Below, one piece after another: positions 46,988 through 61,386 of a stretch of 64,000 nt of DNA. Where the stretch lies: positions 62,001 to 126,000 of the IMG/VR virus record IMGVR_UViG_3300023179_000029. The stretch is one strand, 5' to 3'. The notes beneath the pieces were generated by a model that was given only the letters and a program-made list of their open reading frames with translations, ran no database searches and had not been told where the DNA came from. The stretch's first letter is position 1; every line of letters starts with the position of its first letter. Source of the stretch: a virus. Both the position numbers and the translations under genes were made by a program.

Positions 46988-47021
46988 ATGTTAGCAGGTC
47001 GTGGGTAAAGAGCAGGCTAAA
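46988..47021 (-). promoter_or_regulatory. TTTACC-type promoter 1
   Basis: -10 TAACAT (46988-46993), 10 nt, box TTTACC (47004-47009), second box TTTAGCC ending 47021. Drives the 93-aa gene, probably leaderless. Confidence 0.7.
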
Positions 47022-47253
47022 CCTTAGCCTGCTGCTCTCCCTTGTCGAACCTCTGGCTGACTCCCTGCGCCATTTCGAGGATCTCCAGCGCCTTCTCCAG
47101 AGGAGCGGTAGCGTCTTCGATCAGGTGGAAGCGGCGGTCGTCAAGGTCATTGACTGCCTCAGTCTCTACGAGTTCCATGTAGAGATCGTTAGCGCCCTTC
47201 AGTGCTTCCTCTGTCGCGCTGATGATCTCTTCGATCTTGTCTGTGGTGGTCAT
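47017..47253 (-). CDS. Small acidic helical protein
   Basis: 78 residues (MTTTDKIEEIISATEEALKG...). Amphipathic helices throughout with many Glu and Ala. GGAAGGA ribosome site, TTTACC promoter 25 nt further up. No family recognised. Confidence 0.65.
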   Translation of the reverse strand: MTTTDKIEEIISATEEALKGANDLYMELVETEAVNDLDDRRFHLIEDATAPLEKALEILEMAQGVSQRFDKGEQQAKV

Positions 47254-47284
47254 GGCGTCCTTCCGGTTGATTGACTGTAGGTGA

Positions 47285-47317
47285 ACCTTAGCAGCCTGAT
47301 GGTAAAGGGCGAGTAAA
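47285..47317 (-). promoter_or_regulatory. TTTACC-type promoter 2
   Basis: -10 TAAGGT (47285-47290), 10 nt, TTTACC (47301-47306), TTTACT (47312-47317). Drives the 78-aa gene. Confidence 0.7.
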
Positions 47318-47362
47318 GCTTTGTTTCATGTTGCGCAACCTGCAACGGCGGCGGCCCTTGTT

Positions 47363-47413
47363 CCTTCCCGCCCTCCCTGCATGATAGCGAGGACAGGGTA
47401 AAGAAAAGGCAAA
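47363..47413 (-). promoter_or_regulatory. TTTACC-type promoter 3 with G-rich start
   Basis: -10 TATCAT (47381-47386), 10 nt, TTTACC (47397-47402), TTTGCC (47408-47413). Transcript would start inside GGGAGGGCGGGAAGG (47363-47377) and run about 60 nt without a substantial ORF into promoter 2. Confidence 0.65.
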
Positions 47414-47416
47414 GCT

Positions 47417-47593
47417 TTATTCAAAGTATGACTCTGGAAGCTCTGCTGCATAGATGTATTCAGGCTCTGCATCCTCTGGGATCCATGTGGCGGCGGCCTT
47501 TGCTGTGCGGATTACCTCTGCATTAGTGGCGTCCGTGGGGTTCTCATTGTGGGCTTTCACTGCGGCCCTGTATGCTTCTCTCAGTTCGTTCAT
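47417..47593 (-). CDS. Small Ala-rich protein, probably leaderless
   Basis: 58 residues from MNELREAYRAAVKAHNEN. The ATG lies 7 nt after the -10 box of promoter 4, so the message should begin at the start codon. Helix-rich N-terminal part, then PEDAEPEYIYAAELPESYFE. No family recognised. Confidence 0.6.
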   Translation of the reverse strand: MNELREAYRAAVKAHNENPTDATNAEVIRTAKAAATWIPEDAEPEYIYAAELPESYFE

Positions 47594-47599
47594 GCTTTC

Positions 47600-47632
47600 A
47601 GCATAGCAGGTTGATTGTAAAGACAAGGTAAA
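47600..47632 (-). promoter_or_regulatory. TTTACC-type promoter 4
   Basis: -10 TATGCT (47600-47605), 10 nt, TTTACA (47616-47621), TTTACC (47627-47632). Leaderless start at 47593. Confidence 0.7.
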
Positions 47633-47659
47633 ACATACGGCGGCGGCTAACTACTATTT

Positions 47660-47710
47660 CCTTCCCGCCCTCCCTGCATTATAGCGCCCCTTCGGTAAAG
47701 AGAGGGTAAA
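47660..47710 (-). promoter_or_regulatory. TTTACC-type promoter 5 with G-rich start
   Basis: -10 TATAAT (47678-47683), 10 nt, TTTACC (47694-47699), TTTACC (47705-47710). Transcript begins at GGGAGGGCGGGAAGG (47660-47674); no ORF before promoter 4. Confidence 0.7.
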
Positions 47711-47715
47711 GGATT

Positions 47716-47742
47716 GGAGGGGGTGATTGGCCCACCCCCTCC
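47716..47742 (-). terminator. GC-rich hairpin after winged-helix gene
   Basis: GGAGGGGGTG/CACCCCCTCC, 10 bp perfect with 7-nt loop. The only T-run is the TTTACC box of promoter 5, so terminator and promoter abut. Confidence 0.6.
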
Positions 47743-47753
47743 GTTCCCTTCTG

Positions 47754-48029
47754 CTAGCTGGCCTTCGCGGCGAGCTTGCGGCCCTTGTCGGTGAGGCCGT
47801 AGGTGTGGGCAGGGCGTCCGCGCTGCGGCTTCATCACCTTGCCGGTCACCTTGACCAGACCCTGAGCGACCATCCGGGTCATGAGCGACGGCTGCTGCTC
47901 CAGCGAAACAGCGGTGGCCTTGCCCTTGCTCTCCTTGATCTCCTTGAGGATCTGAGCGGCCTTGACCTCGTAAGCAGCGGTACGGTGGTGCTTCTCGGTC
48001 TTGGTGGTCTTGTCGGTCTTGGTAGCCAT
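47754..48029 (-). CDS. Small winged-helix DNA-binding protein (putative)
   Basis: 91 residues from MATKTDKTTKTEKHHR, with AAAGGAG spaced 6-7 nt (an upstream ATG at 48062 has only AAGG). The C-terminal half SLMTRMVAQGLVKVTGKV...GRPAHTYGLTDKGRKLA has the helix, wing and LTxKGR end of winged-helix regulators. The N-terminus is Lys/Thr-rich. It is a candidate regulator for this gene region, though no direct link to the TTTACC boxes is shown. Confidence 0.6.
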   Translation of the reverse strand: MATKTDKTTKTEKHHRTAAYEVKAAQILKEIKESKGKATAVSLEQQPSLMTRMVAQGLVKVTGKVMKPQRGRPAHTYGLTDKGRKLAAKAS

Positions 48030-48082
48030 GTGGCTCTCCTTTGGTTGAGTGGTAATCACCATTTGATTACCTTGTGCAATGC

Positions 48083-48115
48083 ACTATAGCGGGTTGATAG
48101 TAAAGAGAAAGGAAA
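48083..48115 (-). promoter_or_regulatory. TTTACC-type promoter 6
   Basis: -10 TATAGT (48083-48088), 10 nt, TTTACT (48099-48104), TTTCCT (48110-48115). Drives the winged-helix gene with a ~45-nt leader. Confidence 0.65.
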
Positions 48116-48158
48116 GACAAGGCAAAAGTTAGGTAAAGCTTTGTTTGCCACCCTTTCT

Positions 48159-48207
48159 CCGACCCGCCCTCCCTATTTTATCATTGAGCAGGTAAAGAAC
48201 GGGTAAA
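48159..48207 (-). promoter_or_regulatory. TTTACC-type promoter 7 with G-rich start
   Basis: -10 TAAAAT (48175-48180), 10 nt, TTTACC (48191-48196), TTTACC (48202-48207). GGGAGGGCGGGTCGG (48159-48173) lies at the start. Confidence 0.65.
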
Positions 48208-48228
48208 GCCGGGGCTTTCGCCCCGGCT
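48207..48228 (-). terminator. GC-rich hairpin
   Basis: AGCCGGGG/CCCCGGCT with CTTTCG loop, directly followed leftward by the TTTACC box of promoter 7. Ends the 72-aa gene transcript. Confidence 0.65.
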
Positions 48229-48257
48229 CACCTGCGCCGCTCAACCAAACGGCAAAC

Positions 48258-48476
48258 TTAGTCTGCGAGTGCGTAATCTTCGTTGAGGCTGTCGAAGTAG
48301 CCTGTGATAGCCTCAGTGATACGGCTACCAAGCTCTGCCTCATCCAGATCGGCTTCTGCCGGTGTGAACGGAGTCTTGGGAACTGCGACAAGGATCAGAC
48401 AATCCTCATGTGCCTCTGCCTCCTGAGCAAGCTCGTAGAAAGACTTATTTTTGTTACGACGGTTGAAGATACCCAT
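48258..48476 (-). CDS. Small acidic protein, unknown
   Basis: 72 residues (MGIFNRRNKNKSFYELAQ...). Basic N-terminus, then LILVAVPKTPFTPAEADLDEAELG and an acidic helix. GAAAGGAAC ribosome site. No family recognised. Confidence 0.6.
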   Translation of the reverse strand: MGIFNRRNKNKSFYELAQEAEAHEDCLILVAVPKTPFTPAEADLDEAELGSRITEAITGYFDSLNEDYALAD

Positions 48477-48510
48477 TTGGGTTCCTTTCGGTTGATTTAC
48501 TGTGTCCTAC

Positions 48511-48543
48511 ACTCTAGCAGATGCTAGGTAAAAAGAGAGTAAA
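48511..48543 (-). promoter_or_regulatory. TTTACC-type promoter 8
   Basis: -10 TAGAGT (48511-48516), 10 nt, TTTACC (48527-48532), TTTACT (48538-48543). Drives the 72-aa gene. Confidence 0.65.
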
Positions 48544-48616
48544 GCTACGACACGGGCTGCCTATAATGAGGTCTTACGCAAATATCATCTGGCCGTAAGC
48601 CTTACTCTCATTTACT

Positions 48617-48650
48617 ACATTAGCAGGTCAATGGTAAAGACCTTGCTAAA
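48617..48650 (-). promoter_or_regulatory. TTTACC-type promoter 9, leads into a non-coding stretch
   Basis: -10 TAATGT (48617-48622), 10 nt, TTTACC (48633-48638), TTTAGC (48645-48650). The next ~90 nt hold only an 8-codon ORF before promoter 8. Confidence 0.6.
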
Positions 48651-48682
48651 CTTTGTATCCCGCTCCACTCGCTAATGCGAGA

Positions 48683-48705
48683 GGGAGGGGATCGCACCCC
48701 CTCCC
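48683..48705 (-). terminator. GC-rich hairpin
   Basis: GGGAGGGG/CCCCTCCC (48683-48690, 48698-48705), 7-nt loop, after the 85-aa gene. Confidence 0.55.
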
Positions 48706-48712
48706 TTTGCTA

Positions 48713-48970
48713 CTAGTTTGCCGTAACAGCGCCCAGCATCTTCTCCATCTCGGTCATGTTTTGGGCTGCTGCCAGCAGTGCCTCATTGCGAAGCTCAGTC
48801 CCGCCGATAGTCTCGGCCAGATCAGCAAGGCTATCCAGAAAATTCTCGCCCGTCATTCTGACCAGAAACCCCGGTACTTCCTGCTCGTTCGGGGTCTGCC
48901 CCATAGTGGCACACACTGCCATCATCTCGCTCAGGATCTTGGTGGCTTCTGCCTTCTGCTGCTCGTTCAT
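48713..48970 (-). CDS. Small helical protein, unknown
   Basis: 85 residues (MNEQQKAEATKILSEMMA...), predominantly helical and Glu/Ala-rich (LDSLADLAETIGGTELRN). GGGAGG ribosome site 5 nt before the ATG. Transcribed from TTTACC promoter 10. No family recognised. Confidence 0.65.
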   Translation of the reverse strand: MNEQQKAEATKILSEMMAVCATMGQTPNEQEVPGFLVRMTGENFLDSLADLAETIGGTELRNEALLAAAQNMTEMEKMLGAVTAN

Positions 48971-49005
48971 TTCTACCTCCCGGTAGTGGTTGATTTGTGT
49001 TTACT

Positions 49006-49039
49006 ACCTTAGCAGGTCTTAGGTAAAGACTTTGCTAAT
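49006..49039 (-). promoter_or_regulatory. TTTACC-type promoter 10
   Basis: -10 TAAGGT (49006-49011), 10 nt, TTTACC (49022-49027), weak second box near 49034. Drives the 85-aa gene. Confidence 0.65.
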
Positions 49040-49202
49040 CTTCTGGATTGTGCTTTTTATCACAATCGTTACAAAGCCATCCACCCGGCGGCATAGGCTC
49101 TGATGACATTACAATGCCGGTATGGAGGGCGCTATGCTTCCACGGTACAGTGAATACCACTCCGCAATCGAAGCACACCTCCCAAACCTCATGCGTTTGC
49201 AT
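49035..49202 (-). CDS. Small zinc-ribbon protein
   Basis: 55 residues from MQTHEVWEVCFDCGVVF; AAAGGAG spaced 6 nt. CFDCG near residue 10 and CNDCDKKH near 45 form a two-knuckle zinc site. The longer frame to 49229 would overlap the -10 box. No specific family. Confidence 0.65.
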   Translation of the reverse strand: MQTHEVWEVCFDCGVVFTVPWKHSALHTGIVMSSEPMPPGGWLCNDCDKKHNPED

Positions 49203-49227
49203 AATAACTCCTTTGGTTGATGCAATC

Positions 49228-49260
49228 ACCTTAGCAGGCTATTAGTAAAGAGATCGCAAA
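49228..49260 (-). promoter_or_regulatory. TTTACC-type promoter 11
   Basis: -10 TAAGGT (49228-49233), 10 nt, TTTACT (49244-49249), TTTGCG (49255-49260). Drives the zinc-ribbon gene; its boxes overlap the 3' end of the basic gene upstream. Confidence 0.65.
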
Positions 49261-49394
49261 GCCTGCTTACTGCTCTTTCGATCCTTCTTATTCTTTTGTT
49301 TCTTTGAAGGATCATGGCTGCCTGCACTGTTCCTCATGTGAGCAGCGACGGCGACCAAGTTTCTAGTTTTGGGTTGAGTGATCTTTTTCATCAT
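49242..49394 (-). CDS. 50-residue basic protein, leaderless
   Basis: MMKKITQPKTRNLVAVAAHM...KKQKNKKDRKSSKQALRSLY. The ATG pair lies 6-9 nt after the -10 box of promoter 12, so the message is probably leaderless. Very basic and Lys/Ser-rich; may bind nucleic acid. Its end runs through the boxes of promoter 11. Confidence 0.55.
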   Translation of the reverse strand: MMKKITQPKTRNLVAVAAHMRNSAGSHDPSKKQKNKKDRKSSKQALRSLY

Positions 49395-49399
49395 TAGTT

Positions 49400-49432
49400 A
49401 CGTTAGCAGGTGGATGGTAAAGAGAGTGTAAA
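49400..49432 (-). promoter_or_regulatory. TTTACC-type promoter 12
   Basis: -10 TAACGT (49400-49405), 10 nt, TTTACC (49416-49421), TTTACA (49427-49432). Leaderless start for the 50-aa basic gene. Confidence 0.7.
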
Positions 49433-49437
49433 ACATC

Positions 49438-49470
49438 CTACTAGTAGATTTGTCAGCTTCCTACTAGTAG
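49438..49470. repeat. Two copies of palindrome CTACTAGTAG
   Basis: Palindromic decamers at 49438-49447 and 49461-49470, 23 bp apart, within the non-coding transcript between promoters 13 and 12. Possible dimer-binding sites or small hairpins. Confidence 0.5.
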
Positions 49471-49492
49471 TTTGGTCAGGTGTTTGTCTGGT

Positions 49493-49544
49493 CCGTCCCG
49501 CCCACCCTGTCATTGTAGCGCAAAGCGGGTAAAGAAAGAGTAAA
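49493..49544 (-). promoter_or_regulatory. TTTACC-type promoter 13 with G-rich start
   Basis: -10 TACAAT (49512-49517), 10 nt, TTTACC (49528-49533), TTTACT (49539-49544). GGGTGGGCGGGACGG (49493-49507) lies at the start; about 75 nt without ORF follow. Confidence 0.65.
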
Positions 49545-49566
49545 GGCCGGGGCTTTCGCCCCGGCC
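49545..49566 (-). terminator. GC-rich hairpin ending the non-coding transcript
   Basis: GGCCGGGG/CCCCGGCC with CTTTCG loop, followed leftward by TTTACTC. Confidence 0.65.
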
Positions 49567-49856
49567 CTCCCTTCGCATATGCTGGCTAATTTTTACATCA
49601 GTTAGGCTTGCCTATTTTCCTAACCCAGATGGGACAAACGCTACTTTGTTATCCGAAACATGACTGCCGTAAGGTGGATCAGTCTACCGCACACGCACCT
49701 ATCTTAGCGTTGCGAACCTATAAGGACTGTTTAGCGAGATTTAGTCCACTCTCGGTAGCTCTCTGATAAGGCTAGCATAATCTATTATTTACCCTATAAA
49801 GGGAACGGATTACATTATCTAGCTACTTGGTTGTTGTTGCGCGCTTCATCAACAGG
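49545..49856 (-). ncRNA. Candidate non-coding RNA, about 310 nt
   Basis: A leftward transcript from promoter 14 would end at the hairpin 49545-49566. No ORF above 15 codons has a ribosome site in this span, and no tRNA or rRNA match was seen. Small complementary segments (GGACT/AGTCC) suggest folding. It could also be a leftover of deleted genes. Confidence 0.4.
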
Positions 49857-49860
49857 AACT

Positions 49861-49893
49861 ACTATAGCAGTCCAAGAGTAAAGACTAGGTAAA
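49861..49893 (-). promoter_or_regulatory. TTTACC-type promoter 14
   Basis: -10 TATAGT (49861-49866), 10 nt, TTTACT (49877-49882), TTTACC (49888-49893). Leads into the candidate ncRNA. Confidence 0.7.
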
Positions 49894-49915
49894 ACATCTA
49901 ATGTGTATTACCTCT

Positions 49916-49966
49916 GTCCCACCCGCCATACCCTACAAGTGTATCAACAAAATAATCGCTTGTCAA
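49916..49966 (-). promoter_or_regulatory. Sigma-70 promoter with the G-rich start but no TTTACC boxes
   Basis: TTGACA (49961-49966), 17 nt, TACACT (49938-49943); GGGTATGGCGGGTGGGAC (49916-49933) lies at the start. It links classical promoters with the G-rich element. 49967-50052 shows nothing beyond AT-rich sequence and a weak AGGGAAA/TTTCCCT hairpin. Confidence 0.65.
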
Positions 49967-50052
49967 GTATCAAATAATCATAATACTTTTTATAGTATAT
50001 TTCACTAGGGAAATTTCAATACTTTTCCCTGTAAATAAAGGCTTTTTATTTT

Positions 50053-50124
50053 TTGACAAATGAGGTATATTTATCAGAATATAATACAATAAATTGATTG
50101 TATCATATATTTTTCATTTGTCAA
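50053..50124. promoter_or_regulatory. Nested inverted repeats with promoter
   Basis: TTGACAAATGA (50053-50063) and TCATTTGTCAA (50114-50124) are perfect inverted copies; inside lies ATACAAT/ATTGTAT (50084-50090, 50097-50103). Leftward TTGACA (50119-50124), 16 nt, TACAAT (50097-50102) is a good promoter; the rightward TTGACA lacks a well-spaced -10. Looks like an operator-controlled promoter. Confidence 0.55.
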
Positions 50125-50142
50125 GGGCAAATATTACTTTAT

Positions 50143-50202
50143 TTATGCCTTAGCTGCGCAGAATACCATCACGGCACCTGTAACTACAAATAATACGGTC
50201 AT
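50143..50202 (-). CDS. 19-residue hydrophobic micropeptide
   Basis: MTVLFVVTGAVMVFCAAKA, with AAAGG spaced 5 nt. Long enough to cross a membrane once. Flanked by AT-rich regulatory DNA with TTACT/AGTAA repeats. It could be a type-I-toxin-like peptide or small membrane regulator; no antisense RNA is evident. Confidence 0.4.
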   Translation of the reverse strand: MTVLFVVTGAVMVFCAAKA

Positions 50203-50331
50203 AATACCTTTCAGATTGAATATTTTACTTATAGTAACGAATATATTACTTTCACCTATTATATACGCGCACGAGGGAGGGAGGCTGTTGAGGGGGGTGG
50301 ATAGGTTGATCACACATAAAATGAATATGTG

Positions 50332-50490
50332 TCAGTCTCTTGGATCCCACAAATAAATGAATAAGTAGGATGCTGCCCCTACTGCTGCCCCCACGCATAT
50401 CTTATTTATTAGATCAGGGGGAGCGATTGCCATAAATGTTATTCCTATGAGAATAGCTGAGACTATTCTTTTCTTTAGTATTGTTGTCAT
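50332..50490 (-). CDS. Small two-pass membrane protein
   Basis: 52 residues (MTTILKKRIVSAILIGITF...). Two hydrophobic segments (10-24 and 32-47) separated by PPDLINK. A G-rich stretch GGGAGGGAGG lies just downstream at about 50274 on the plus strand. No family recognised. Ribosome site not obvious. Confidence 0.55.
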   Translation of the reverse strand: MTTILKKRIVSAILIGITFMAIAPPDLINKICVGAAVGAASYLFIYLWDPRD

Positions 50491-50545
50491 GTTTATTCTT
50501 TTATGTTATTCATTGTATTGTTATCTGGAGGAATGTGGGCGACTA

Positions 50546-50785
50546 TCAGTATAGCCAACTGTCGTGAGTCTTGGCATCTAGCTCGTCCCACTTTTCTTTT
50601 TCTTTTAGGTCTGTGGAATAGATTTCAAAACCAAATAGACCGACTCTCACACGAATATACTTTTCATGTGAATTAGTTGCTTGGCGGTATATGCCAAATG
50701 AACCTTTCAGTGAACGGATGCGGCTCACCCGAAGAATCTTGATTTCTTTATTCTTTGTCTTGTATATTGTTTTATGTATTTCCAT
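50546..50785 (-). CDS. Small basic protein, unknown
   Basis: 79 residues (MEIHKTIYKTKNKEIKIL...). AAAAGGAAA ribosome site. Basic beta-like first half, then FGFEIYSTDLKEKEKWDELD. No family recognised. Confidence 0.6.
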   Translation of the reverse strand: MEIHKTIYKTKNKEIKILRVSRIRSLKGSFGIYRQATNSHEKYIRVRVGLFGFEIYSTDLKEKEKWDELDAKTHDSWLY

Positions 50786-50827
50786 TGTATTTCCTTTTAT
50801 TATTCTGGGGATGATTGTGGGCGACTA

Positions 50828-51385
50828 TTACTTTGCCCATTCGGGCGGATTGGGATTATCTTTGTAATGCTCCTGCCAATATTCTTTTCTTTGCTCTGCC
50901 CAATAATCCTTATCATTTATTTTCTTTGAATAATCAATAAATTCATCGTACCCTTCAGGAAGGCCAGCGACCACATTATTGATTTCTTGATTCCAGAGCT
51001 TATCGCGTTCATGCAAATACTTTTTCTCAAGCCATAGGTAAAGCCTGAACGCATAGTTGCTCAGGGATTTATATATCTTTCTTTTGCTCATTTTCTTTTC
51101 TTTCTTGTGAGCGACCATCTCTGTCGAAACGCCAAATACATCAGTAATATTATCTACTGAAAGCTGGTCCTTTATTTCTTTGCTCCAAGATTCTGGGACA
51201 AGTGGGCGATTTTCTTTATTTGATTGAACAGGAAAATTGACCTCAGTAAATAATCCGTCCAATTCGTCGGGGACTGTCTCGCAGTCACGGCAAACAGGAT
51301 CAGCGTCCTCCCAGAGCATGGCAGCATCCTCAAAGAGCTTGCCGCACTTACTACAATCGAACCATTCAATAGACCTACCGCCCAT
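50828..51385 (-). CDS. Zinc-ribbon protein
   Basis: 185 residues. CSKCGKLFEDAAMLWEDADPV-CRDC (about residues 11-35) is a classic zinc ribbon. The middle carries Pro/Ser linker, then KKMSKRKIYKSLSNYAFRLY and a helical acidic end (KDYWAEQRKEYWQEHY). Possibly nucleic-acid binding. Overlaps the next gene by 11 nt. Confidence 0.6.
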   Translation of the reverse strand: MGGRSIEWFDCSKCGKLFEDAAMLWEDADPVCRDCETVPDELDGLFTEVNFPVQSNKENRPLVPESWSKEIKDQLSVDNITDVFGVSTEMVAHKKEKKMSKRKIYKSLSNYAFRLYLWLEKKYLHERDKLWNQEINNVVAGLPEGYDEFIDYSKKINDKDYWAEQRKEYWQEHYKDNPNPPEWAK

Positions 51386-51581
51386 AATTAGTTACTCCAA
51401 TCTTGAATACATACTTCCACAGGTTTATTGACAAAGTATAATAAATGGGCGAAGGCGGAAGCAGCGTGGGCGCGATCCCGGTCATGCGAGTAAAACTAAT
51501 ACCAAGTATCCTATGGTGAGTGTAATGATAAGTTGCCTGAACACCAAACTCTGTATTGCCAATTTTAGTTTTCTTTATCAT
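51375..51581 (-). CDS. Small protein, paralogue of the 75-aa gene at 52.0 kb
   Basis: 68 residues from MIKKTKIGNTEFGVQATY; another ATG at 51596 is possible, both with weak ribosome sites. TKIGNTEFGVQATYHYTHHRI aligns with MKIGPLNIHVEGALTHHVI of the 75-aa protein, sharing KIG, V and the HH pair. Function unknown. Confidence 0.55.
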   Translation of the reverse strand: MIKKTKIGNTEFGVQATYHYTHHRILGISFTRMTGIAPTLLPPSPIYYTLSINLWKYVFKIGVTNYGR

Positions 51582-51786
51582 AAAAACTCGATCCATATTG
51601 TTTTTGTAGCTCGTCCCGATGCTCAGGCATATTCACATAAATATTACAAGCCTTTAGACTTGTAGCGCCATAAGAAAGACTAAGGCGGCTATCAACACCA
51701 TAAACGGGATCAAAAATAACATTATCGTCCTCGTCCACAACAATCCAACGATTGTCAGGGTATTTATTTCCTGTAACTACTCTCAT
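51565..51786 (-). CDS. Small protein, unknown
   Basis: 73 residues (MRVVTGNKYPDNRWIVVDED...). Good GGAG ribosome site. Beta-like start, then helix with YVNMPEHRDELQKQYG. Ends 16 nt inside the next gene. Confidence 0.6.
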   Translation of the reverse strand: MRVVTGNKYPDNRWIVVDEDDNVIFDPVYGVDSRLSLSYGATSLKACNIYVNMPEHRDELQKQYGSSFYDKEN

Positions 51787-51868
51787 TTGTTTCTCCGGTA
51801 AATTTCAGTAAGACCAATTATACATATCATACAAATAGATAACGATGCGGCCTCAAATATTTGGTTCG

Positions 51869-52096
51869 TCATTTATCTTTTGCGACAGCGACCCTAATCC
51901 AAGAAAACGGCAGGTTAGTGTCAAGGTTGAACCACGCTGGAGAGGTGTAAGGCTCTCCGTTGTCCCTCTGATAAGTCTTAGCCCTGCCAGCGCCCCACTC
52001 AACCGATCCTAGCCCGATCACATGATGCGTCAAAGCCCCCTCAACATGAATATTCAGGGGGCCAATCTTCATTTTCTTATCAAAATACTTGTTCAT
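51869..52096 (-). CDS. Small protein, paralogue of the 68-aa gene
   Basis: 75 residues (MNKYFDKKMKIGPLNIHV...). GGAG ribosome site. Shares the KIG-x(5)-V-x(6)-HH pattern with the gene at 51.4-51.6 kb. Function unknown. Confidence 0.6.
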   Translation of the reverse strand: MNKYFDKKMKIGPLNIHVEGALTHHVIGLGSVEWGAGRAKTYQRDNGEPYTSPAWFNLDTNLPFSWIRVAVAKDK

Positions 52097-52148
52097 GGTT
52101 TCTCCATTATATCACATATTTGATTTTTGATTACTTTTGTTTACATCT

Positions 52149-52187
52149 AGCGGGCGATTCCCTTATATTTATTGGAAACCGCCCGCT
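52149..52187 (-). terminator. Long hairpin after the 256-aa gene
   Basis: AGCGGGCG/CGCCCGCT (52149-52156, 52180-52187) with additional TTCC/GGAA pairing inside. Likely terminator without a proper T-run. Confidence 0.55.
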
Positions 52188-52223
52188 CACTTCTTTTTTA
52201 TCTTATGTGATCACTTCTTGTAT

Positions 52224-52243
52224 CATGTAACATTTGTTACATG
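52224..52243. promoter_or_regulatory. Palindrome CATGTAAC-ATTT-GTTACATG
   Basis: 8-bp perfect inverted repeat with 4-nt spacer just past the stop of the 256-aa gene. May be a hairpin of the transcript end or a dimeric operator. Confidence 0.5.
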
Positions 52244-52247
52244 AAAG

Positions 52248-53018
52248 TTAGTACCCGCTTACAGGCTCAATAAATTCGATATGACCGTCACCGTCAGGTG
52301 CAAAAAATGCCTGAGCATCCTCGTCCCACTTCAAGTCACCGAAATAGTCTAGCAGAGGATTGTCGCCCTCTTTTTTATCCCAACGGTAGCCGTAACCGAT
52401 GTACGCTCCGTCAGCGTCAGACACATCACCCTCACGGAAATCAAGGCGCACAGGTTCGCCCTTGCGATCATCAGCAGACTGAATAATGTAACTATTCCAG
52501 TCATATGAAATAATACCGGCCTCGCCATACTCACGGAAAATCTTTGGTGCCGTGTAGCCGCCACGAACATCGCAGCCGCCATGAATTTGTAGCATGAGAT
52601 AAATCTCACCCTCATACTCAAAGTAATGACCTTGAATAGTTTGCGAGAGCAGACAATCGTAGTTGTAAGAATTGAATCCACGAAGCCAATTGGTGGGATA
52701 CTTTTCACACCACTCGTCCATCAAAGTATACCAATCAGTCTTCTGATTTTCTTCCATATTACAAAAATCATCGAACTCGGATTGAATTTCTGGCATGAAC
52801 TCGATACGCTCGCGCAAATAATGAAATAGGTCAAGGCTGATGCCGTATTCTGTAACATTTACAGCGGGCGCGTCAATAAATGACTGAACATCCCTGCCTT
52901 TATTTCTTTCCCAATTGCGGCCATACGCGCCACCAGAGTCAAGCATATGACTCCCGGTATTTTCTGTCAGCATACCGGCAAGGATCTCGTCGGTCAGGGT
53001 AATGTTTTGATTAGTCAT
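52248..53018 (-). CDS. Conserved-looking phage protein, unknown
   Basis: 256 residues. GSHMLDSGGAYGRNWERNKG near the N-terminus recalls a phage hypothetical family (from memory). Later YLMLQIHGGCDVRGGYTAPKIF and HIEFIEPVSGY. Strong AAGGAG ribosome site. Alpha/beta, acidic. Function unknown. Confidence 0.65.
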   Translation of the reverse strand: MTNQNITLTDEILAGMLTENTGSHMLDSGGAYGRNWERNKGRDVQSFIDAPAVNVTEYGISLDLFHYLRERIEFMPEIQSEFDDFCNMEENQKTDWYTLMDEWCEKYPTNWLRGFNSYNYDCLLSQTIQGHYFEYEGEIYLMLQIHGGCDVRGGYTAPKIFREYGEAGIISYDWNSYIIQSADDRKGEPVRLDFREGDVSDADGAYIGYGYRWDKKEGDNPLLDYFGDLKWDEDAQAFFAPDGDGHIEFIEPVSGY

Positions 53019-53033
53019 GTTGTCTCCTTTTTA

Positions 53034-53213
53034 TTATCCTACAAATGATACCAACAGGGCGGTAGCCGCCAATGACCATACTATAGCAACCGTAACCCGG
53101 TGCCATGTATGCTTACAGAAACCGCGAGCGTAGTAACCGCCTACAGCAGCTAGACCCTCAAATCCAAGATGGAAGAAATAATCTGATAGTGTGAAATGAA
53201 ATGAAAAGTGCAT
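53034..53213 (-). CDS. Small membrane protein
   Basis: 59 residues (MHFSFHFTLSDYFFHLGF...). A C-terminal hydrophobic helix (VAIVWSLAATALLVSFVG) and a shorter one (GLAAVGGYYARG) suggest two passes. AAGAA ribosome site. Directly follows the 87-aa gene. Confidence 0.55.
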   Translation of the reverse strand: MHFSFHFTLSDYFFHLGFEGLAAVGGYYARGFCKHTWHRVTVAIVWSLAATALLVSFVG

Positions 53214-53219
53214 TTCTTT

Positions 53220-53483
53220 TTACTTACTGAGAGCGTCCCAGAACTCGTCGTGATTATTTCTTGCCTGACGGAGCTTCCAATGCCACGGATTGTAAGAATA
53301 ATCACCCTCAATACCGTGGTAGTAAACGCCAACATAAAGACCGGGCTGTTCGTCCAGCCTTCTAAACAATGATCCGTCACCTTCAAACAAACCACCAATG
53401 TAGGCGGCCTGCTCAGGCGTGATCCTGCCATCCTCAGTCGGCATATCCGCAATAGCGCGGACTACTTCTCGTTCACTAGCCAT
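53220..53483 (-). CDS. Small protein with LAGLIDADG-like start motif
   Basis: 87 residues. TPEQAAYIGGLFEGDGSLFRR resembles the first LAGLIDADG homing-endonuclease motif (AYxxGLFxGDG), but the rest is too short for the full enzyme (a single motif copy, no second). AGGAGG ribosome site. It may be a remnant or domesticated fragment. Driven by TTTACC promoter 15. Confidence 0.6.
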   Translation of the reverse strand: MASEREVVRAIADMPTEDGRITPEQAAYIGGLFEGDGSLFRRLDEQPGLYVGVYYHGIEGDYSYNPWHWKLRQARNNHDEFWDALSK

Positions 53484-53512: not shown

Positions 53513-53545
53513 AGTATAGACGATGCCGGGTAAAGAGTTGGTAAA
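53513..53545 (-). promoter_or_regulatory. TTTACC-type promoter 15
   Basis: -10 TATACT (53513-53518), 10 nt, TTTACC (53529-53534), TTTACC (53540-53545). Drives the 87-aa gene. Confidence 0.7.
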
Positions 53546-55945: not shown

Positions 55946-55953
55946 AATGCCCC

Positions 55954-56178
55954 CTATGCCCTGTCCCAAGCAGGCCACTCGTTATTTTCTGCGATATCAA
56001 AAGCCTGCTCCCTGATATCTTCGTCAATGATTGGATTCCAACTATGGTCCACATCATAAACATCAGCAAAGTCAGGCAGGAAAATGTTTTCGTTTTCCTG
56101 TAGAACGCGCTCCACTTCCTTAGTCTCAGTGTCAATAAAGACCGTAGCGGGGATCAAATATGTTACTGCTACCTTCAT
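55954..56178 (-). CDS. Small protein, unknown
   Basis: 74 residues (MKVAVTYLIPATVFIDTETK...). Starts with a beta hairpin and ends acidic (DIAENNEWPAWDRA). AAGGAGG ribosome site; driven by TTTACC promoter 16. Confidence 0.6.
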   Translation of the reverse strand: MKVAVTYLIPATVFIDTETKEVERVLQENENIFLPDFADVYDVDHSWNPIIDEDIREQAFDIAENNEWPAWDRA

Positions 56179-56207
56179 AACTGCCTCCTTGATTGGTTGC
56201 TGTTACC

Positions 56208-56240
56208 AGCATATCAACTACAGGGTAAAGAGAGAGTAAA
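56208..56240 (-). promoter_or_regulatory. TTTACC-type promoter 16
   Basis: -10 TATGCT (56208-56213), 10 nt, TTTACC (56224-56229), TTTACT (56235-56240). Confidence 0.7.
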
Positions 56241-56241
56241 A

Positions 56242-56487
56242 TCAGTCCTCGTCCCACGGTGAACAATGCGTAGGCTCATTGGTAATCAAATCAGCCCGGT
56301 ACTTATCTACCTCAATCTCGATATCCCGAGCAAGACGGTAAATAAATTCCTCGTATGCCTCGTCCCATTCAAGACCGGCATCATCAGCCTGAGTCTTGTA
56401 GATATCAATAAGTTCATAAAAAATGAACTCGCACTCTTCGTCTACCTTGACTTCCTTGTTATTTACAACGATAGTGCGGTCACGCAT
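56242..56487 (-). CDS. Small acidic paralogue A (DxGxEW family)
   Basis: 81 residues. QADDAGLEWDEAYEEFIYRL matches QAEDEGIEWTQEHNEFIE and EAVDYGVEWTAEHDKFVE of two genes at 58.3-58.7 kb: A-x-D-x-G-x-EW, then an aromatic or His and F. AAGGAGG ribosome site. All three are acidic and helical; function unknown. Confidence 0.65.
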   Translation of the reverse strand: MRDRTIVVNNKEVKVDEECEFIFYELIDIYKTQADDAGLEWDEAYEEFIYRLARDIEIEVDKYRADLITNEPTHCSPWDED

Positions 56488-56516
56488 AACGCCTCCTTAG
56501 TTGAATCGTGCTACAC

Positions 56517-56549
56517 ACGGTAGCAGCCCCGTGGTAAAGGGATGGTAAA
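56517..56549 (-). promoter_or_regulatory. TTTACC-type promoter 17
   Basis: -10 TACCGT (56517-56522), 10 nt, TTTACC (56533-56538), TTTACC (56544-56549). Drives paralogue A. Confidence 0.7.
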
Positions 56550-56551
56550 AC

Positions 56552-56821
56552 CTAGCCTTCTAGCTTGTGAAGCTCAGTCAGGCGCTCAGTAATACTTTCA
56601 AGATCCTGTGGATCCTCCTCAATCGGATGGTACGGATCCTCGTTATCAATAATTTTTAGAATGAGCTTTTCTTCATCGGTTGCGGTATCAACAACAAAAC
56701 TCGCGGTCTTGCCCTGAATAAATACCTCACCCGGCTCATTTACCTTAGACTCGTATGGCGTGAACATATTAATATATCCTGACACCATATTGTCTACTGC
56801 TCGCTGTGTAGCCTCGTCCAT
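56552..56821 (-). CDS. Small acidic protein, unknown
   Basis: 89 residues from MDEATQRAVDNMVSGYIN; AAGGAG spaced 6 nt. Beta middle (GEVFIQGKTASFVVD), helical end (LESITERLTELHKLEG). Operon partner of the secreted lytic-enzyme-like gene. Confidence 0.6.
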   Translation of the reverse strand: MDEATQRAVDNMVSGYINMFTPYESKVNEPGEVFIQGKTASFVVDTATDEEKLILKIIDNEDPYHPIEEDPQDLESITERLTELHKLEG

Positions 56822-56831
56822 TTTTATCTCC

Positions 56832-57248
56832 TTAGAGGGCATGACGCCCGTTGTATGATCTATACAGTCTATCAAAAAGCCTAGCGGCATAAAACGCATC
56901 GTGCCGTAGATCGCCGGTGGCGGGACCAATCAGCCCAAAATGATTCCAAGCCCGCCCTGCGCCGCTCTCAGCGACCCAGACGCCCAACAGAAGCCTCCAC
57001 GGTACCCGGTACTTGACTGCGGCCTCTAGGACAATCCCGCGATTCTTTCCGTGAGGGGCATACCTGTAATAACTATTAATTCGTCCAATGTTGTAACTTC
57101 TGCCTGTATAAGTATTTACAGGACCACTCCAATCCAAACTAACGGGCGCATTTCTTACTTTATGCTCTAAGGTTTCCTTTTTTGCTGCCTGAGCAACAGC
57201 GGGAAGCGAAGCAATCAGTGTAATAATAATAGTCAAAATACTTTTCAT
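56832..57248 (-). CDS. Secreted lysozyme/transglycosylase-like protein
   Basis: 138 residues from MKSILTIIITLIASLPAVA; AAGGAG spaced 6 nt. Clear signal peptide (residues 1-22, AQA cleavage-like). The C-terminal half YRVPWRLLLGVWVAESGAG...NHFGLIGPATG resembles the start of a lytic-transglycosylase fold, with the Glu in AESGAG as likely acid. Truncated compared with typical enzymes, which are 150-200 residues, so activity is uncertain. An unusual stem-loop array precedes it. Confidence 0.6.
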   Translation of the reverse strand: MKSILTIIITLIASLPAVAQAAKKETLEHKVRNAPVSLDWSGPVNTYTGRSYNIGRINSYYRYAPHGKNRGIVLEAAVKYRVPWRLLLGVWVAESGAGRAWNHFGLIGPATGDLRHDAFYAARLFDRLYRSYNGRHAL

Positions 57249-57271
57249 AATAACTCCTTGTGTAAGATTAT

Positions 57272-57441
57272 GGGGAGGGGGCCAACGACAACCCCCTCCC
57301 CGTTTGCGCAAGTTTTATCTTGCGACCTGAGTTCTCGGTACTCAGGGCTTTTATTGCCGAAGTGACCAGCTTCGGCGGGTGAGGGAGTGAAGGAGGAAAA
57401 TCTCCCTCACCACCTTGATCTTAGCATAAATTTACTAAGAT
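57272..57441 (-). promoter_or_regulatory. Six consecutive stem-loops upstream of the secreted lysozyme-like gene
   Basis: Perfect stems at 57272-57301 (GGGGAGGGGG/CCCCCTCCCC, 10 bp), 57307-57324 (CGCAAG, 6 bp), 57326-57346 (CCTGAGT, 7 bp), 57356-57376 (GCCGAAG, 7 bp), 57378-57411 (GGTGAGGGAG, 10 bp) and 57418-57441 (ATCTTAG, 7 bp). Only short spacers separate them. Read leftward, the loop of the 57378-57411 stem carries CCTCCTT, which could pair with the AAGGAG ribosome site of the next gene. No TTTACC promoter lies inside, so the array is within an operon. Confidence 0.6.
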
Positions 57442-57675
57442 TCAAGACTCATCAACGTATCCGATCATATCAACGGCAAAATTAAGTAGTAGCTTAGACG
57501 CTTTAATTTGACTTTGCGCCTCTTTAAGCTCTAGCTCCGCCATATCAAGATCGACCAGCATCATGCTGCGAGCAAATTCATTTTTTTCAATTGCCCGACG
57601 ATTGATTTCTTTTGTTACAATGTTTATTGCAGAAACAATCTGGTCAATCGTGTTATCTGTTTCAACAATAATCAT
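57442..57675 (-). CDS. Small helical protein, unknown
   Basis: 77 residues (MIIVETDNTIDQIVSAINI...); coiled-coil-like centre (LVDLDMAELELKEAQSQIK) and hydrophobic end. Overlaps the next gene by 4 nt. No family recognised. Confidence 0.6.
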   Translation of the reverse strand: MIIVETDNTIDQIVSAINIVTKEINRRAIEKNEFARSMMLVDLDMAELELKEAQSQIKASKLLLNFAVDMIGYVDES

Positions 57676-57854
57676 GCTTTGTCACGTTCGGGATCATGCT
57701 TCGGCGGCTTAGTTCCCATAAATGCCGGGTGCATGGTGCGGGCGACCGGGAAAGGCTTATCAAGCATATGATTCTGCTTGTAAATCGTGACAGGCTGGCC
57801 CGTCTGCTGTGCCTCTGCGATTGCTGCATCCCACTTCTTTAGAAAATTACTCAT
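57672..57854 (-). CDS. Small basic protein, unknown
   Basis: 60 residues from MSNFLKKWDAAIAEAQQTG; AAGGAG spaced 7 nt. Ends basic (GTKPPKHDPERDKA). No family recognised. Confidence 0.6.
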   Translation of the reverse strand: MSNFLKKWDAAIAEAQQTGQPVTIYKQNHMLDKPFPVARTMHPAFMGTKPPKHDPERDKA

Positions 57855-57871
57855 TTGTTTCTCCTTGTTAT

Positions 57872-58234
57872 TTAGTACCTGAAAAGGTATGTTGTGCCTT
57901 GCCACTCAACTTCTGAGAAGTCCATCTTAAGTTCCTCAGCCGCAGCATCCCAATCAATATGACTTATCGGCCAATCGTAGCTGCTCACAGTGACAGCGCC
58001 AATATCGCTAGCGAACTCCTCAGCATACTGAGTAAAATCATCCTCTGCGATAAAATAAATTAGGTTTTTTGCAGCAGATTCTAGATCCATTCCAAGCTCG
58101 CTTTCAAGCTCATTAATTTCATCAAGCTCGTATTGAGCCTCCTTTTGCTCGTCTACAGAATATTGCTCGTCCTCGTCATTAAGGATTTCTACAAGCTCGT
58201 TCCTGCGCTCCAATACTTCATCAATGTCTAGCAT
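57872..58234 (-). CDS. Acidic phage protein with WPxxHIDW motif
   Basis: 120 residues. Helical N-terminus (LDEINELESELGMDLE), then IYFIAEDDFTQYAEEFASDI and WPISHIDWDAAAEELKMDF, a combination recalled in several actinophage small proteins. AAAGGA ribosome site. Function unknown. Confidence 0.65.
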   Translation of the reverse strand: MLDIDEVLERRNELVEILNDEDEQYSVDEQKEAQYELDEINELESELGMDLESAAKNLIYFIAEDDFTQYAEEFASDIGAVTVSSYDWPISHIDWDAAAEELKMDFSEVEWQGTTYLFRY

Positions 58235-58270
58235 AGTTAATTCCTTTGGTCGTATTTAACTGCTGCGTAC

Positions 58271-58303
58271 AGCATAACAGATCAAGAGTAAGGGTTTGGT
58301 AAA
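58271..58303 (-). promoter_or_regulatory. TTTACC-type promoter 18, degenerate first box
   Basis: -10 TATGCT (58271-58276), 10 nt, CTTACT (58287-58292), TTTACC (58298-58303). Drives the 120-aa gene and the operon containing the stem-loop array. Confidence 0.55.
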
Positions 58304-58305
58304 AC

Positions 58306-58521
58306 CTACTCGTCCTCGCTAAAGGTTGGCAGCGGCTCTGCAAAATGACTCATGTACATATCCACTGCCTGAATTACTTGATTGTAAAGGCTGGCAGCAT
58401 GAGGCTCAATAAACTCATTATGCTCCTGAGTCCATTCGATGCCTTCATCCTCTGCCTGCTGCTTGTAACTATCCCTGAGATAATTGTCAATAGCCTCATA
58501 GATTAAATTCTTGTCACTCAT
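58306..58521 (-). CDS. Small acidic paralogue B (DxGxEW family)
   Basis: 71 residues from MSDKNLIYEAIDNYLRDS; GAGG inside the previous gene as ribosome site. Carries QAEDEGIEWTQEHNEFIE. Adjacent to paralogue C with an 8-nt overlap. Confidence 0.65.
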   Translation of the reverse strand: MSDKNLIYEAIDNYLRDSYKQQAEDEGIEWTQEHNEFIEPHAASLYNQVIQAVDMYMSHFAEPLPTFSEDE

Positions 58522-58738
58522 TCTCGTCCTCCTCAATTGCTTCGGCAAGGCCCGGAAGCTCTGGTGCCTCTATATTATACCAATTGCTTTTACTGTCCTC
58601 AAGATAACTGCAAAGGTCGCTTGCCGCATCTTCTACAAACTTGTCATGCTCGGCAGTCCACTCTACACCATAATCTACTGCTTCGGCGTGATAGTGACCA
58701 TAAACCTCGTCAAAGATATACTGATATCTAATTGCCAT
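58514..58738 (-). CDS. Small acidic paralogue C (DxGxEW family)
   Basis: 74 residues from MAIRYQYIFDEVYGHYHA. Contains EAVDYGVEWTAEHDKFVE and an acidic end. Coupled to the 52-aa gene by an 11-nt overlap. Tandem duplication with paralogue B. Confidence 0.65.
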   Translation of the reverse strand: MAIRYQYIFDEVYGHYHAEAVDYGVEWTAEHDKFVEDAASDLCSYLEDSKSNWYNIEAPELPGLAEAIEEDENE

Positions 58739-58886
58739 CGTCGTCCATCTCCTTGTCGTAATCAACAATTACACACCCACAGTCCATGCACTCTACCGCA
58801 ACATTAACGGGTTTATCTGTGCCATAGGTCACACACTCCAAATCGTGACCCACATGATTAATGAGATCCTCAAAATGATTTACCAT
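58728..58886 (-). CDS. 52-residue Cys-rich protein
   Basis: MVNHFEDLINHVGHDLECV...; CMDCGC near residue 34 and another Cys at 18, a possible metal knuckle. AAGGAA spaced 4 nt from the second ATG. Overlaps paralogue C. Confidence 0.55.
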   Translation of the reverse strand: MVNHFEDLINHVGHDLECVTYGTDKPVNVAVECMDCGCVIVDYDKEMDDDGN

Positions 58887-59106
58887 CATATTCCTTATAG
58901 TTCACATCAAGAAGCTTGTCATTTGCTTCCAGATAATCATATGCCGTCTGTACCATTAGCTCGTCCGGCACCTCGCGCTGCCAATATACCAGATTGGGAA
59001 GCGGGCCGCCATGCGCCTTGATTTCTGTCACGATGCCCCTGTCACGGTCAGCCCGTGACAGGAAACACCAATCGCCGTTGTCGCTGCTAAAGCCGTAAAC
59101 GATCAT
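58870..59106 (-). CDS. Small protein, unknown
   Basis: 78 residues (MIVYGFSSDNGDWCFLSR...). Beta-like start then an acidic helix with LMVQTAYDYLEAND. 4-nt overlap with the gene upstream, 17-nt overlap with the gene downstream. No family recognised. Confidence 0.6.
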   Translation of the reverse strand: MIVYGFSSDNGDWCFLSRADRDRGIVTEIKAHGGPLPNLVYWQREVPDELMVQTAYDYLEANDKLLDVNYKEYDGKSF

Positions 59107-59705
59107 GTGTGAACATCCACAGACAGGATAGCAAGCCCGTAGTCCTCGCCGTCCGTCAGGTCAAAGGTGCGAGCCGTGTAAGGCGTCACATCCCAAGCGT
59201 TGAAGAACGGGGGATTGAAATACTTATCCAGAAACCGCTCATAAGTCTCAGCAAGCCACGGACGAGTGTAGGACAGCTTCCAATCCTCAAAACCATCATC
59301 GGTGCCAGCATAACTATTTGCAAGCGCCTCACGGATGGCACCAGCGGCATCCTCAATTGACTCAAACTCGCGGAAATTGTCGCGGGGCGTATCAGTAAGA
59401 ATGTTGATCCTGTTATTGATATCCCAATACAAAGACTTGTATGCGGCATCAACAGCGGCATCAAAATTCCAGCTATCCCTATCGTCAATCCAAGCGTCCA
59501 CACCACCGCGATAATTGTCAGAGCTAAATTCGGCAGGGTGGCCGTCCTTGTAAGTCAAAGCCAGCGGTGTGTACCAATTGTTGTCATCAAACTTATGATC
59601 AACATAGTCAGCAAACTGCTCATGCTCTGTGGCAAAAATCTTGCCGTCTTGATAAATCATATCATCTTCATCAAGATTGATTAGGAAATGATTAAGTGAA
59701 TGCAT
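59103..59705 (-). CDS. Acidic protein, unknown
   Basis: 200 residues (MHSLNHFLINLDEDDMIY...). Rich in Asp, Tyr and Trp; FADYVDHKFDDNNWYTPL, INILTDTPRDNFREFES and FDLTDGEDYGLAILSVDVHT. AAGGAG ribosome site. TTTACC promoter 19 upstream. No family recognised. Confidence 0.6.
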   Translation of the reverse strand: MHSLNHFLINLDEDDMIYQDGKIFATEHEQFADYVDHKFDDNNWYTPLALTYKDGHPAEFSSDNYRGGVDAWIDDRDSWNFDAAVDAAYKSLYWDINNRINILTDTPRDNFREFESIEDAAGAIREALANSYAGTDDGFEDWKLSYTRPWLAETYERFLDKYFNPPFFNAWDVTPYTARTFDLTDGEDYGLAILSVDVHT

Positions 59706-59735
59706 TTAATTCTCCTTAGTGGTTGTCGTGCTTAC

Positions 59736-59768
59736 ACGGTAGCAGGTCGTAGGTAAAGGGTTGGCAAA
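59736..59768 (-). promoter_or_regulatory. TTTACC-type promoter 19
   Basis: -10 TACCGT (59736-59741), 10 nt, TTTACC (59752-59757), TTTGCC (59763-59768). Confidence 0.7.
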
Positions 59769-59963
59769 TCAGCCAACCCCTACCTTTGCGAGCTTCCGTT
59801 CGATGTAAGAAACAATCGAATCCGCATTAGCAATATCGCCTTCGATGTACCTGATTGCTTCATCTGTGTTCTGCTGAGTTTCCAGAACATTATGAAGCTC
59901 CTCCGCGTAACTATTTGCGATGCGGATAATTTCTACTGCAACATCAATATCTACTTCAATCAT
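59769..59963 (-). CDS. Small helical protein, unknown
   Basis: 64 residues (MIEVDIDVAVEIIRIANSY...), acidic two-helix layout. AGGAGG ribosome site. Its stop abuts the second box of promoter 19. Confidence 0.6.
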   Translation of the reverse strand: MIEVDIDVAVEIIRIANSYAEELHNVLETQQNTDEAIRYIEGDIANADSIVSYIERKLAKVGVG

Positions 59964-60189
59964 TATTTACCTCCTGAATCATCCAGTCAAGAAAATGACC
60001 GTCGCCTCGTTCACACTCTTCAAGCAAATTATGCAGGTATTCGTCCATCACATGAGAGTATTCAAGCCTGCCCTCAATACGCTCACCCTCGTAATCAATT
60101 ACCTCGCGGACGGCATCGGCCTCAGTCGGTGCCTCAACCTCAACCGTCTGGTAATGAATTTCTGGTACTTGAATATGATACTTCGGCAT
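59956..60189 (-). CDS. Small protein, unknown
   Basis: 77 residues from MPKYHIQVPEIHYQTVEVE; ATG overlaps the stop of the preceding gene, the 137-aa DUF4241-like one. Beta start, then a helix with LHNLLEECERGDGHFLDWMI. No family recognised. Confidence 0.6.
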   Translation of the reverse strand: MPKYHIQVPEIHYQTVEVEAPTEADAVREVIDYEGERIEGRLEYSHVMDEYLHNLLEECERGDGHFLDWMIQEVNND

Positions 60190-60602
60190 CAAAGATCCTC
60201 CTCGTCACAATTGCAGTAGTCGTAGCTCAGGTCTGTGCCGCACTCAGGGCAAAGATCATCCTCGTTCACGGGATCAAAATCAATTGTGAGCGTCTTGATC
60301 CTGCCGTTGCGGTCAAGCTCTGCGTACACGGGGTACAGACCATCGCCGTATGCGGTGCGGGAAGCAATTGCGAGCTTCTGGCCGTATGCGTTTCTGAGAG
60401 CGCCATAGCCTTCCTTGCTCAGAGTTGCGTTACAGCACCCATCGTAATTCATTTCGTATGAATCCTGCGTGGGCGCGTCGTCAAACTCGCCAAGCTGACC
60501 CGGATCGAATTCCTTGACGAAATCAGTGTTGATGTAGCAGGGATCAATAATCATTACCTGCCCGCTATCAACGGCGATCTCACCAATCTTTGTCTTTGTC
60601 AT
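60189..60602 (-). CDS. DUF4241-like protein with zinc ribbon
   Basis: 137 residues. AVDSGQVMIIDPCYINTDF near the N-terminus matches the DUF4241 signature (SGxLxxxDPCY), and AYGDGLYPVYAELDRNGRI continues it. A zinc knuckle (CPECGTDLSYDYCNC) ends the protein. DUF4241-type proteins are widespread in phages; function not established. Coupled to both neighbours. Confidence 0.7.
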   Translation of the reverse strand: MTKTKIGEIAVDSGQVMIIDPCYINTDFVKEFDPGQLGEFDDAPTQDSYEMNYDGCCNATLSKEGYGALRNAYGQKLAIASRTAYGDGLYPVYAELDRNGRIKTLTIDFDPVNEDDLCPECGTDLSYDYCNCDEEDL

Positions 60603-60856
60603 GCTACTTCTCCTTTCACAACATCCTGAGATGTGTAATTGTCGTAGTTGTCAATGGCGGCTTGAATCCAAGCCTGCCGGTTGTATGTATTGCGGTCCTC
60701 AACGATATCACAGTCGCCACAGACAAGGGTACCATATCCCTGAGCCTCACCGGGGGCAATAAGCTCAATGGTTCCATCATCAAATACAGCGCGAACCTCA
60801 ACATCCATGCTAAGAAATACCGCGTCACTGGTACAGCTAGGGCATACTGCTTTCAT
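60599..60856 (-). CDS. Zinc-ribbon protein
   Basis: 85 residues. CPSCTSDAVF near the N-terminus and CGDCDI about 45 residues on form a zinc ribbon, then an acidic helix. AGGAG ribosome site. TTTACC promoter 20 precedes it. Confidence 0.65.
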   Translation of the reverse strand: MKAVCPSCTSDAVFLSMDVEVRAVFDDGTIELIAPGEAQGYGTLVCGDCDIVEDRNTYNRQAWIQAAIDNYDNYTSQDVVKGEVA

Positions 60857-60891
60857 TTGTTACTCCTTTGTCGTATTGAATAACTGAATAC

Positions 60892-60924
60892 AAGGTATCA
60901 GGTTGCGGGTAAAGACTTAGTAAA
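60892..60924 (-). promoter_or_regulatory. TTTACC-type promoter 20
   Basis: -10 TACCTT (60892-60897), 10 nt, TTTACC (60908-60913), TTTACT (60919-60924). Overlaps the end of the 135-aa gene. Confidence 0.7.
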
Positions 60925-61324
60925 GGTGTCCCGTACTCGAAAACGGGTTCTCCATAATCTTTGCCCGAATCTTCTCCAGATCAGCAAGCTCATGCTGTGG
61001 CCTGTCCCTGCGATTGGTAAGCTGATCTTGAATGTATCGGAGCTTACTTACCGTGTTTGGGCGGGCATCAGTCGAATGACGGTCGGGGCTATTCACCTGC
61101 ATACGCGGATCATTAATTACCGCTTCAACCTTCTCAGCCCAAATCTTTTCTTCTGCTGACTTCTTGCTTGCCCTTGCGGCATGGGCGGCCTCCAAGCCAC
61201 TCAGCCCGCTGCTCACGGCCTTTGGTTCGCTATGCTCAGGGCAATTAATAGGAATGCGACCGCGCTGTGACGGGCGCTCCCAAGTGTGATTGCCAGCTTC
61301 ACAATGCAGCGTTCTCATAGTCAT
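60917..61324 (-). CDS. Basic protein with Cys/His finger
   Basis: 135 residues. MRTLHCEAGNHTWERPSQRG...CPEH (one Cys/His/Cys/His site) followed by a long basic helical part (LEAAHAARASKKSAEEKIW). AAGGAG ribosome site. Possibly a small DNA-binding protein; TTTACC promoter 21 precedes it. Confidence 0.6.
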   Translation of the reverse strand: MTMRTLHCEAGNHTWERPSQRGRIPINCPEHSEPKAVSSGLSGLEAAHAARASKKSAEEKIWAEKVEAVINDPRMQVNSPDRHSTDARPNTVSKLRYIQDQLTNRRDRPQHELADLEKIRAKIMENPFSSTGHLY

Positions 61325-61353
61325 AATGATCTCCTTGATCGTTGGTTAGAACC

Positions 61354-61386
61354 ATCGTAGCACATCTTCTGTAAAGACTTGGTAAA
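61354..61386 (-). promoter_or_regulatory. TTTACC-type promoter 21
   Basis: -10 TACGAT (61354-61359), 10 nt, TTTACA (61370-61375), TTTACC (61381-61386). Confidence 0.7.

Follow-up and report, generated by a model that had tools for sequence, protein, structure and literature searches.

A window of 64,000 nucleotides from an uncultured phage (bases 62001–126000 of the IMG/VR record IMGVR_UViG_3300023179_000029, which has 127,398 bases) carries 21 promoters with two TTTACC-like boxes upstream of a TAnnnT -10 hexamer, all on the minus strand between positions 46988 and 61386. That these form one uniform, activator-dependent set is well supported by the sequence, through the absence of a -35 element, the rigid 11-bp box pair, the conservation of the sites in related phages and the helical phasing of the boxes to the -10. 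It seems fairly probable that each site is an activator-dependent promoter read by a host response regulator of the OmpR/PhoB type, and the virus probably borrows such a regulator to switch on a group of small genes. Because the half-sites fit the OmpR/PhoB type, and searches of the five phages compared revealed no protein of that type, the activator is more likely to come from the host than from the phage; we infer that the reader is of the OmpR type, host-encoded and activating.

Sequence and geometry of the sites

The promoters are numbered 1–21. All 21 sites share the arrangement box1-N5-box2-N10-TAnnnT with zero indels, such that 5 nt separate the two 6-bp boxes and 10 nt separate box2 from the -10 hexamer. 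The first-pass annotation, made from the DNA letters, had described 21 such paired boxes with the -10 at exactly 10 nt, and every copy was recovered. Its box spacing of 11–12 nt held as a regular pair and failed as a range: the period is 11 bp in every site once box1 is read as TT[TA][AG]C, the apparent variation being due to TTTAGC variants. The leading TT is kept in 21/21 copies of box1 and 20/21 of box2, with C, T, A or G as the last base (compared with TTTAYA-N5-TTTACA for a KdpE site). The 21 sites score 29–44 against a 36-bp position weight matrix (PWM), values that describe the sites rather than test them because the matrix was derived from them, so that the independent test comes from the relatives. 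Elsewhere in the 127,398 bp, a score of at least 8 is reached only by two plus-strand sites at the end of the array (46631, score 22.2; 46687, score 20.5); three dinucleotide-model shuffles, summed, gave three matches of at least 8, one of them at least 14 and none at least 16.

A -35 hexamer is absent, as had been claimed, and TTGACA-like sequences are depleted, with at most 2/6 matches at 16–18 nt in 20 of the 21 sites (random expectation for at least 3/6 matches, ~9.6 of 21 positions). The extended -10 noted earlier in many copies was also borne out (TG in 16/21 sites, TGC in 12/21). An ATG of an open reading frame (ORF) of at least 40 codons lies exactly 6 nt past the -10 in seven promoters (0.5 expected), and these leaderless ATGs place the first transcribed base, and so the likely start.

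Conservation and spacing in related phages

The same promoters occur in the same region of four related IMG/VR records (G001, G003, G004 and G005; the record under study is G000), 69 in all. The scan of related phages that the first-pass annotation had proposed thus found the boxes retained, including at orthologous genes. Spacing was assessed on 81 box pairs from the five phages, one mismatch being the most allowed. Some of the pairs are orthologous, so that not every pair counts as an independent event. A TTTAC-TTTAC spacing of 11 predominates in all five phages. The gap from box to TAnnnT was 10 nt in 45 pairs, 11 nt in nine (G005 only), 20 nt in 10, 21 nt in five and 22 nt in two, with no more than four pairs at any other gap. 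Gaps of 10 or 11 accounted for 54 of the 81 pairs (null mean, 3); among the remaining 27, which lack a -10 at 10/11, gaps of 20–22 accounted for 16 (null mean, 1.5; reached in 0 of 20,000 random draws). Both gap-22 pairs may belong to ordinary promoters, since a TTGACT with a spacer of 17 nt overlaps them.

The gap also changes between orthologues, from 10 (G000, G003) to 20 (G004) at promoter 14, and from 10 (G000, G001) to 20 (G004) or 11 (G005) at promoter 1. Displacement by a full helical turn is tolerated by a DNA-bound activator but not by a sigma contact with a -35.

Likeness to known activated promoters

The sites share two features with OmpR/PhoB-type activated promoters, namely direct half-sites with a period of ~11 bp and a position at the place of the -35 that stays on one side of the helix as seen from the -10. 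In the middle promoters of phage T4, a single box near -30, bound by the phage-coded MotA, replaces the -35 and the -10 is retained. The first-pass annotation had likened the array to these promoters, and the likeness in position stands; the box sequence differs, the phage boxes are paired, and paired half-sites fit the OmpR/PhoB type (KdpE, MtrA, PhoP, GlnR, SARP) much better. The lambda cII promoter has repeats of ~10-bp period on either side of a -35, and was rejected as a model for sites with an 11-bp period and no -35.

Escherichia coli KdpE, an OmpR/PhoB-type regulator, binds TTTATA-N5-TTTACA with an invariant leading TT (PMC3264566), two 6-bp direct repeats 5 bp apart as in the phage, although the phage boxes are TTTACC and occur in 21 copies in one genome. 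In actinobacteria, MtrA recognises [G/T]T[G/A]ACC-N5-GT[G/T]ACN (PMC5650626; PMC13189361) and GlnR recognises GTnAC-n6-GTnAC (PMC10704036), and the sites of MtrA, GlnR and PhoR have an 11-bp period in common. The TnAC half-sites and 11-bp period of MtrA, PhoP and GlnR sites (PMC5650626, PMC3353115, PMC10704036) resemble those of the phage, whose first base is T where theirs is G; activating MtrA sites in Corynebacterium glutamicum, unlike the phage sites, lie upstream of a -35. The Streptomyces SARP/AfsR boxes, which are direct repeats of 11 bp, span -40 to -19, overlap the -35 and are bound by a dimer with OmpR-type DNA-binding domains (PMC10936776). Counted as 11-mers, the phage repeats occupy the same position, although with an extended -10 that the SARP/AfsR promoters do not share. 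The SARP definition admits repeats of 11 or 22 bp and places the 3' repeat at a distance of 8 bp from the -10, and the phage relatives also shift the pair 10 bp upstream. A KdpE-like or MtrA-like regulator would be most compatible with these comparisons. Control of phage genes by a host OmpR-type response regulator has a parallel in cyanophages, where PhoB of the host binds phage genes (PMC10976474), although there a few scattered Pho boxes serve stress-related genes and here a uniform 21-promoter array serves small genes.

Under the proposed mechanism, a host winged-helix response regulator of the OmpR/PhoB type would bind as a head-to-tail dimer to the two TTTACC half-sites, which span roughly -39 to -34 and -28 to -23. 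Both lie on the same helix face and extend over the position that a -35 would occupy. The bound regulator would contact RNA polymerase, sigma would hold the extended -10 (TGnTAnnnT), and transcription would start 7 nt past the -10 hexamer. A single signal from the host, or a single host regulator that is constitutively active, could then control about 15 small genes and six apparently noncoding transcripts. It is a tentative proposal, close to evenly balanced, that a single host response regulator governs all 21 promoters, small genes and noncoding RNAs alike, with the gap stepping by one base (9/9 G005 promoters) or by one helical turn (G003, G004) as the genes are kept. If so, this would be, to our knowledge, the largest uniform phage promoter set tied to a host two-component regulator, and infection would be tied to a signal in the host, for example ion stress or envelope stress. 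The gaps of 10, 11 and 20–22 on the same genes would offer a natural series on the phasing of OmpR-type dimers against RNA polymerase, and the pattern would provide a sequence rule for finding such regulons in other uncultured phages.

Candidate readers in host and phage

The phage encodes a tail sheath protein whose nearest annotated relatives are in actinobacterial myophages (27–29% identity); the DNA polymerase and one gene flanking the array likewise show similarity to the actinobacterial side. A megablast search among phages gave no similar record, so the actinobacterial host is a putative one. No promoters of this kind were present in the cultured actinobacterial myophages E3, Finch, Stormageddon, Myrna, Pupper and LE2-3. 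Matches in viral_contigs (L071, L074–L076) were set aside as further carriers, since they look like single chance matches.

A blind scan of ~85,000 species genomes with the bare pattern returned 35 matches, 19 of them in Clostridia. Of these 19, 12 lie upstream of genes for a Na/Pi cotransporter (six), a PHO4 transporter (one) or a DUF4118 KdpD-like kinase (five), all with the same layout (L023, L024, L026, L030, L031, L032, L035, L036, L049, L052, L055 and L057). The kinase loci form a further link to KdpE, and a KdpE-like response regulator lies downstream of the kinase gene in both of the two inspected; the KdpE-like and KdpD-like labels come from domain content and sequence reading rather than a dedicated family model. 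The scan indicates the type of regulator that uses such a layout, not which one the phage host has.

Within the five phages, no OmpR DNA-binding domain (Trans_reg_C) scored above the cut-off, with control genomes positive, so an OmpR-type reader would be the host's. A weak Trans_reg_C match at record positions 24173–24259 was discarded, as the ORF translation looks spurious. No SARP was identified in the phages, and the MotA family was absent among the matches listed from Pfam and PHROG scans (at most 25 families listed per pooled scan, with most structural genes left out).

Several points weigh against a host OmpR/PhoB-type reader. The actinobacterial host is inferred from distant protein similarity, and the exact-pattern scan of the ~85,000 species genomes gave zero actinobacterial matches. 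The pattern is rare in Clostridia (4/391 genomes) and, among 400 Chloroflexota, was found in the centre genome only. The reader might instead be a phage-coded activator of another, non-OmpR-like fold that follows a MotA-like logic, which is unlikely but has named candidates. The first is a sigma-region-4-like protein of 126 amino acids without region 2 (record positions 36335–36715; L006:16335–16715, plus strand), whose gene has 80–84% identity in G001, G003 and G004. No counterpart of the gene turned up in E3, Stormageddon, Myrna, Pupper or LE2-3, phages in which the promoters are missing as well; alone, the protein explains neither two half-sites spaced 11 bp apart nor the displacement by one turn. 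The second, a zinc-finger-like protein (60917–61324) under promoter 1, is present in all four phages aligned. The third is a small winged-helix protein (47754–48029, minus strand) that weakly resembles the partition protein AspA, and its gene was not found in promoter-bearing G001, a record that may be incomplete. For two of the candidate regulators, structure prediction gave models of low confidence (predicted local distance difference test, pLDDT, of 68 and 65). The geometry of the sites fits OmpR-type dimers, which argues against all such candidates. The first-pass annotation had named a phage-coded activator or an altered host sigma as possible readers; the activator part stands, with a host-coded one likelier.

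It is improbable that the boxes are repressor operators on constitutive extended -10 promoters. Dispersed stoperators are found in cluster A mycobacteriophages, the phage sites similarly recur in a single orientation, and promoters with an extended -10, here TGn in 16/21 sites, can do without a -35. A repressor need not keep to one helical face, however, and the strict phasing at 10/11 or 20–22 nt and the -35 depletion suit activation better. Least probable is an altered or phage-encoded sigma reading TTTACC directly as an upstream element, which the sigma-region-4-like protein might seem to favour, since sigma elements keep a near-fixed spacer whereas here it jumps among 10, 11 and 20–22 and switches among orthologues, two boxes are conserved, and the TAnnnT of the -10, with its extended TG, is of the normal kind.

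Genes and transcripts of the array

Fifteen promoters lie directly upstream of an ORF and six lack a clear one, fewer than the approximately 20 small genes first assigned to them. Promoter 1 (61354–61386) precedes the 135-aa putative zinc-binding gene product at 60917–61324. Promoters 2 (60892–60924; gene 60599–60856), 3 (59736–59768; gene 59103–59705), 4 (58271–58303; gene 57872–58234) and 11 (49228–49260; gene 49035–49202) also entered the orthologue comparison. Promoter 6 (56208–56240; gene 55954–56178) has homologues in G001 and G004 (gap 10) and G005 (gap 11), promoter 14 (48511–48543) serves gene 48258–48476, and promoter 16 (48083–48115), upstream of the winged-helix gene, has orthologues with a gap of 20/21 in G003/G004. 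Genes also follow promoters 5 (56517–56549; 56242–56487), 7 (53513–53545; 53220–53483), 12 (49006–49038; 48713–48970) and 20 (47285–47317; 47017–47253). The gene of promoter 10 (49400–49432; 49242–49394) is near-leaderless, and those of promoters 18 (47600–47632; 47417–47593) and 21 (46988–47020; 46699–46980) are leaderless. Promoter 13 (48617–48649) has no clear ORF.

Promoter 8 (49861–49893) is predicted to drive a noncoding transcript of ~320 nt (49555–49876, minus strand), whose core G003 and G004 retain, six of its base pairs having changed on both sides; no Rfam family matched it at the gathering score. Short G-rich noncoding transcripts are predicted from promoters 9 (49512–49544), 15 (48175–48207), 17 (47678–47710) and 19 (47381–47413). 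Right at the predicted start past these promoters (49544, 48207, 47710 and 47413), and in relatives, stands GGGnGGGnGGG, and ~13 copies of such short, apparently noncoding transcripts occur over the five phages.

A strong GC-rich hairpin adjoins only three sites (49544, 48207 and 47710; promoters 9, 15 and 17), where many had been reported. Two terminator-like hairpins (49512–49569 and 48175–48227) finish exactly where box1 stands, so the boxes, being rich in T, may also serve as terminator tails. A promoter of a different type, the canonical TTGACA-16-TACAAT (50097–50124, minus strand), also lies inside the array region. At the array end, a terminator hairpin (46660–46689) is flanked by two plus-strand box pairs within 46631–46703; the second (46687–46703) lies directly past the hairpin, and the outer (46631–46663), which has a poor -10, is kept in G001, G003 and G004.
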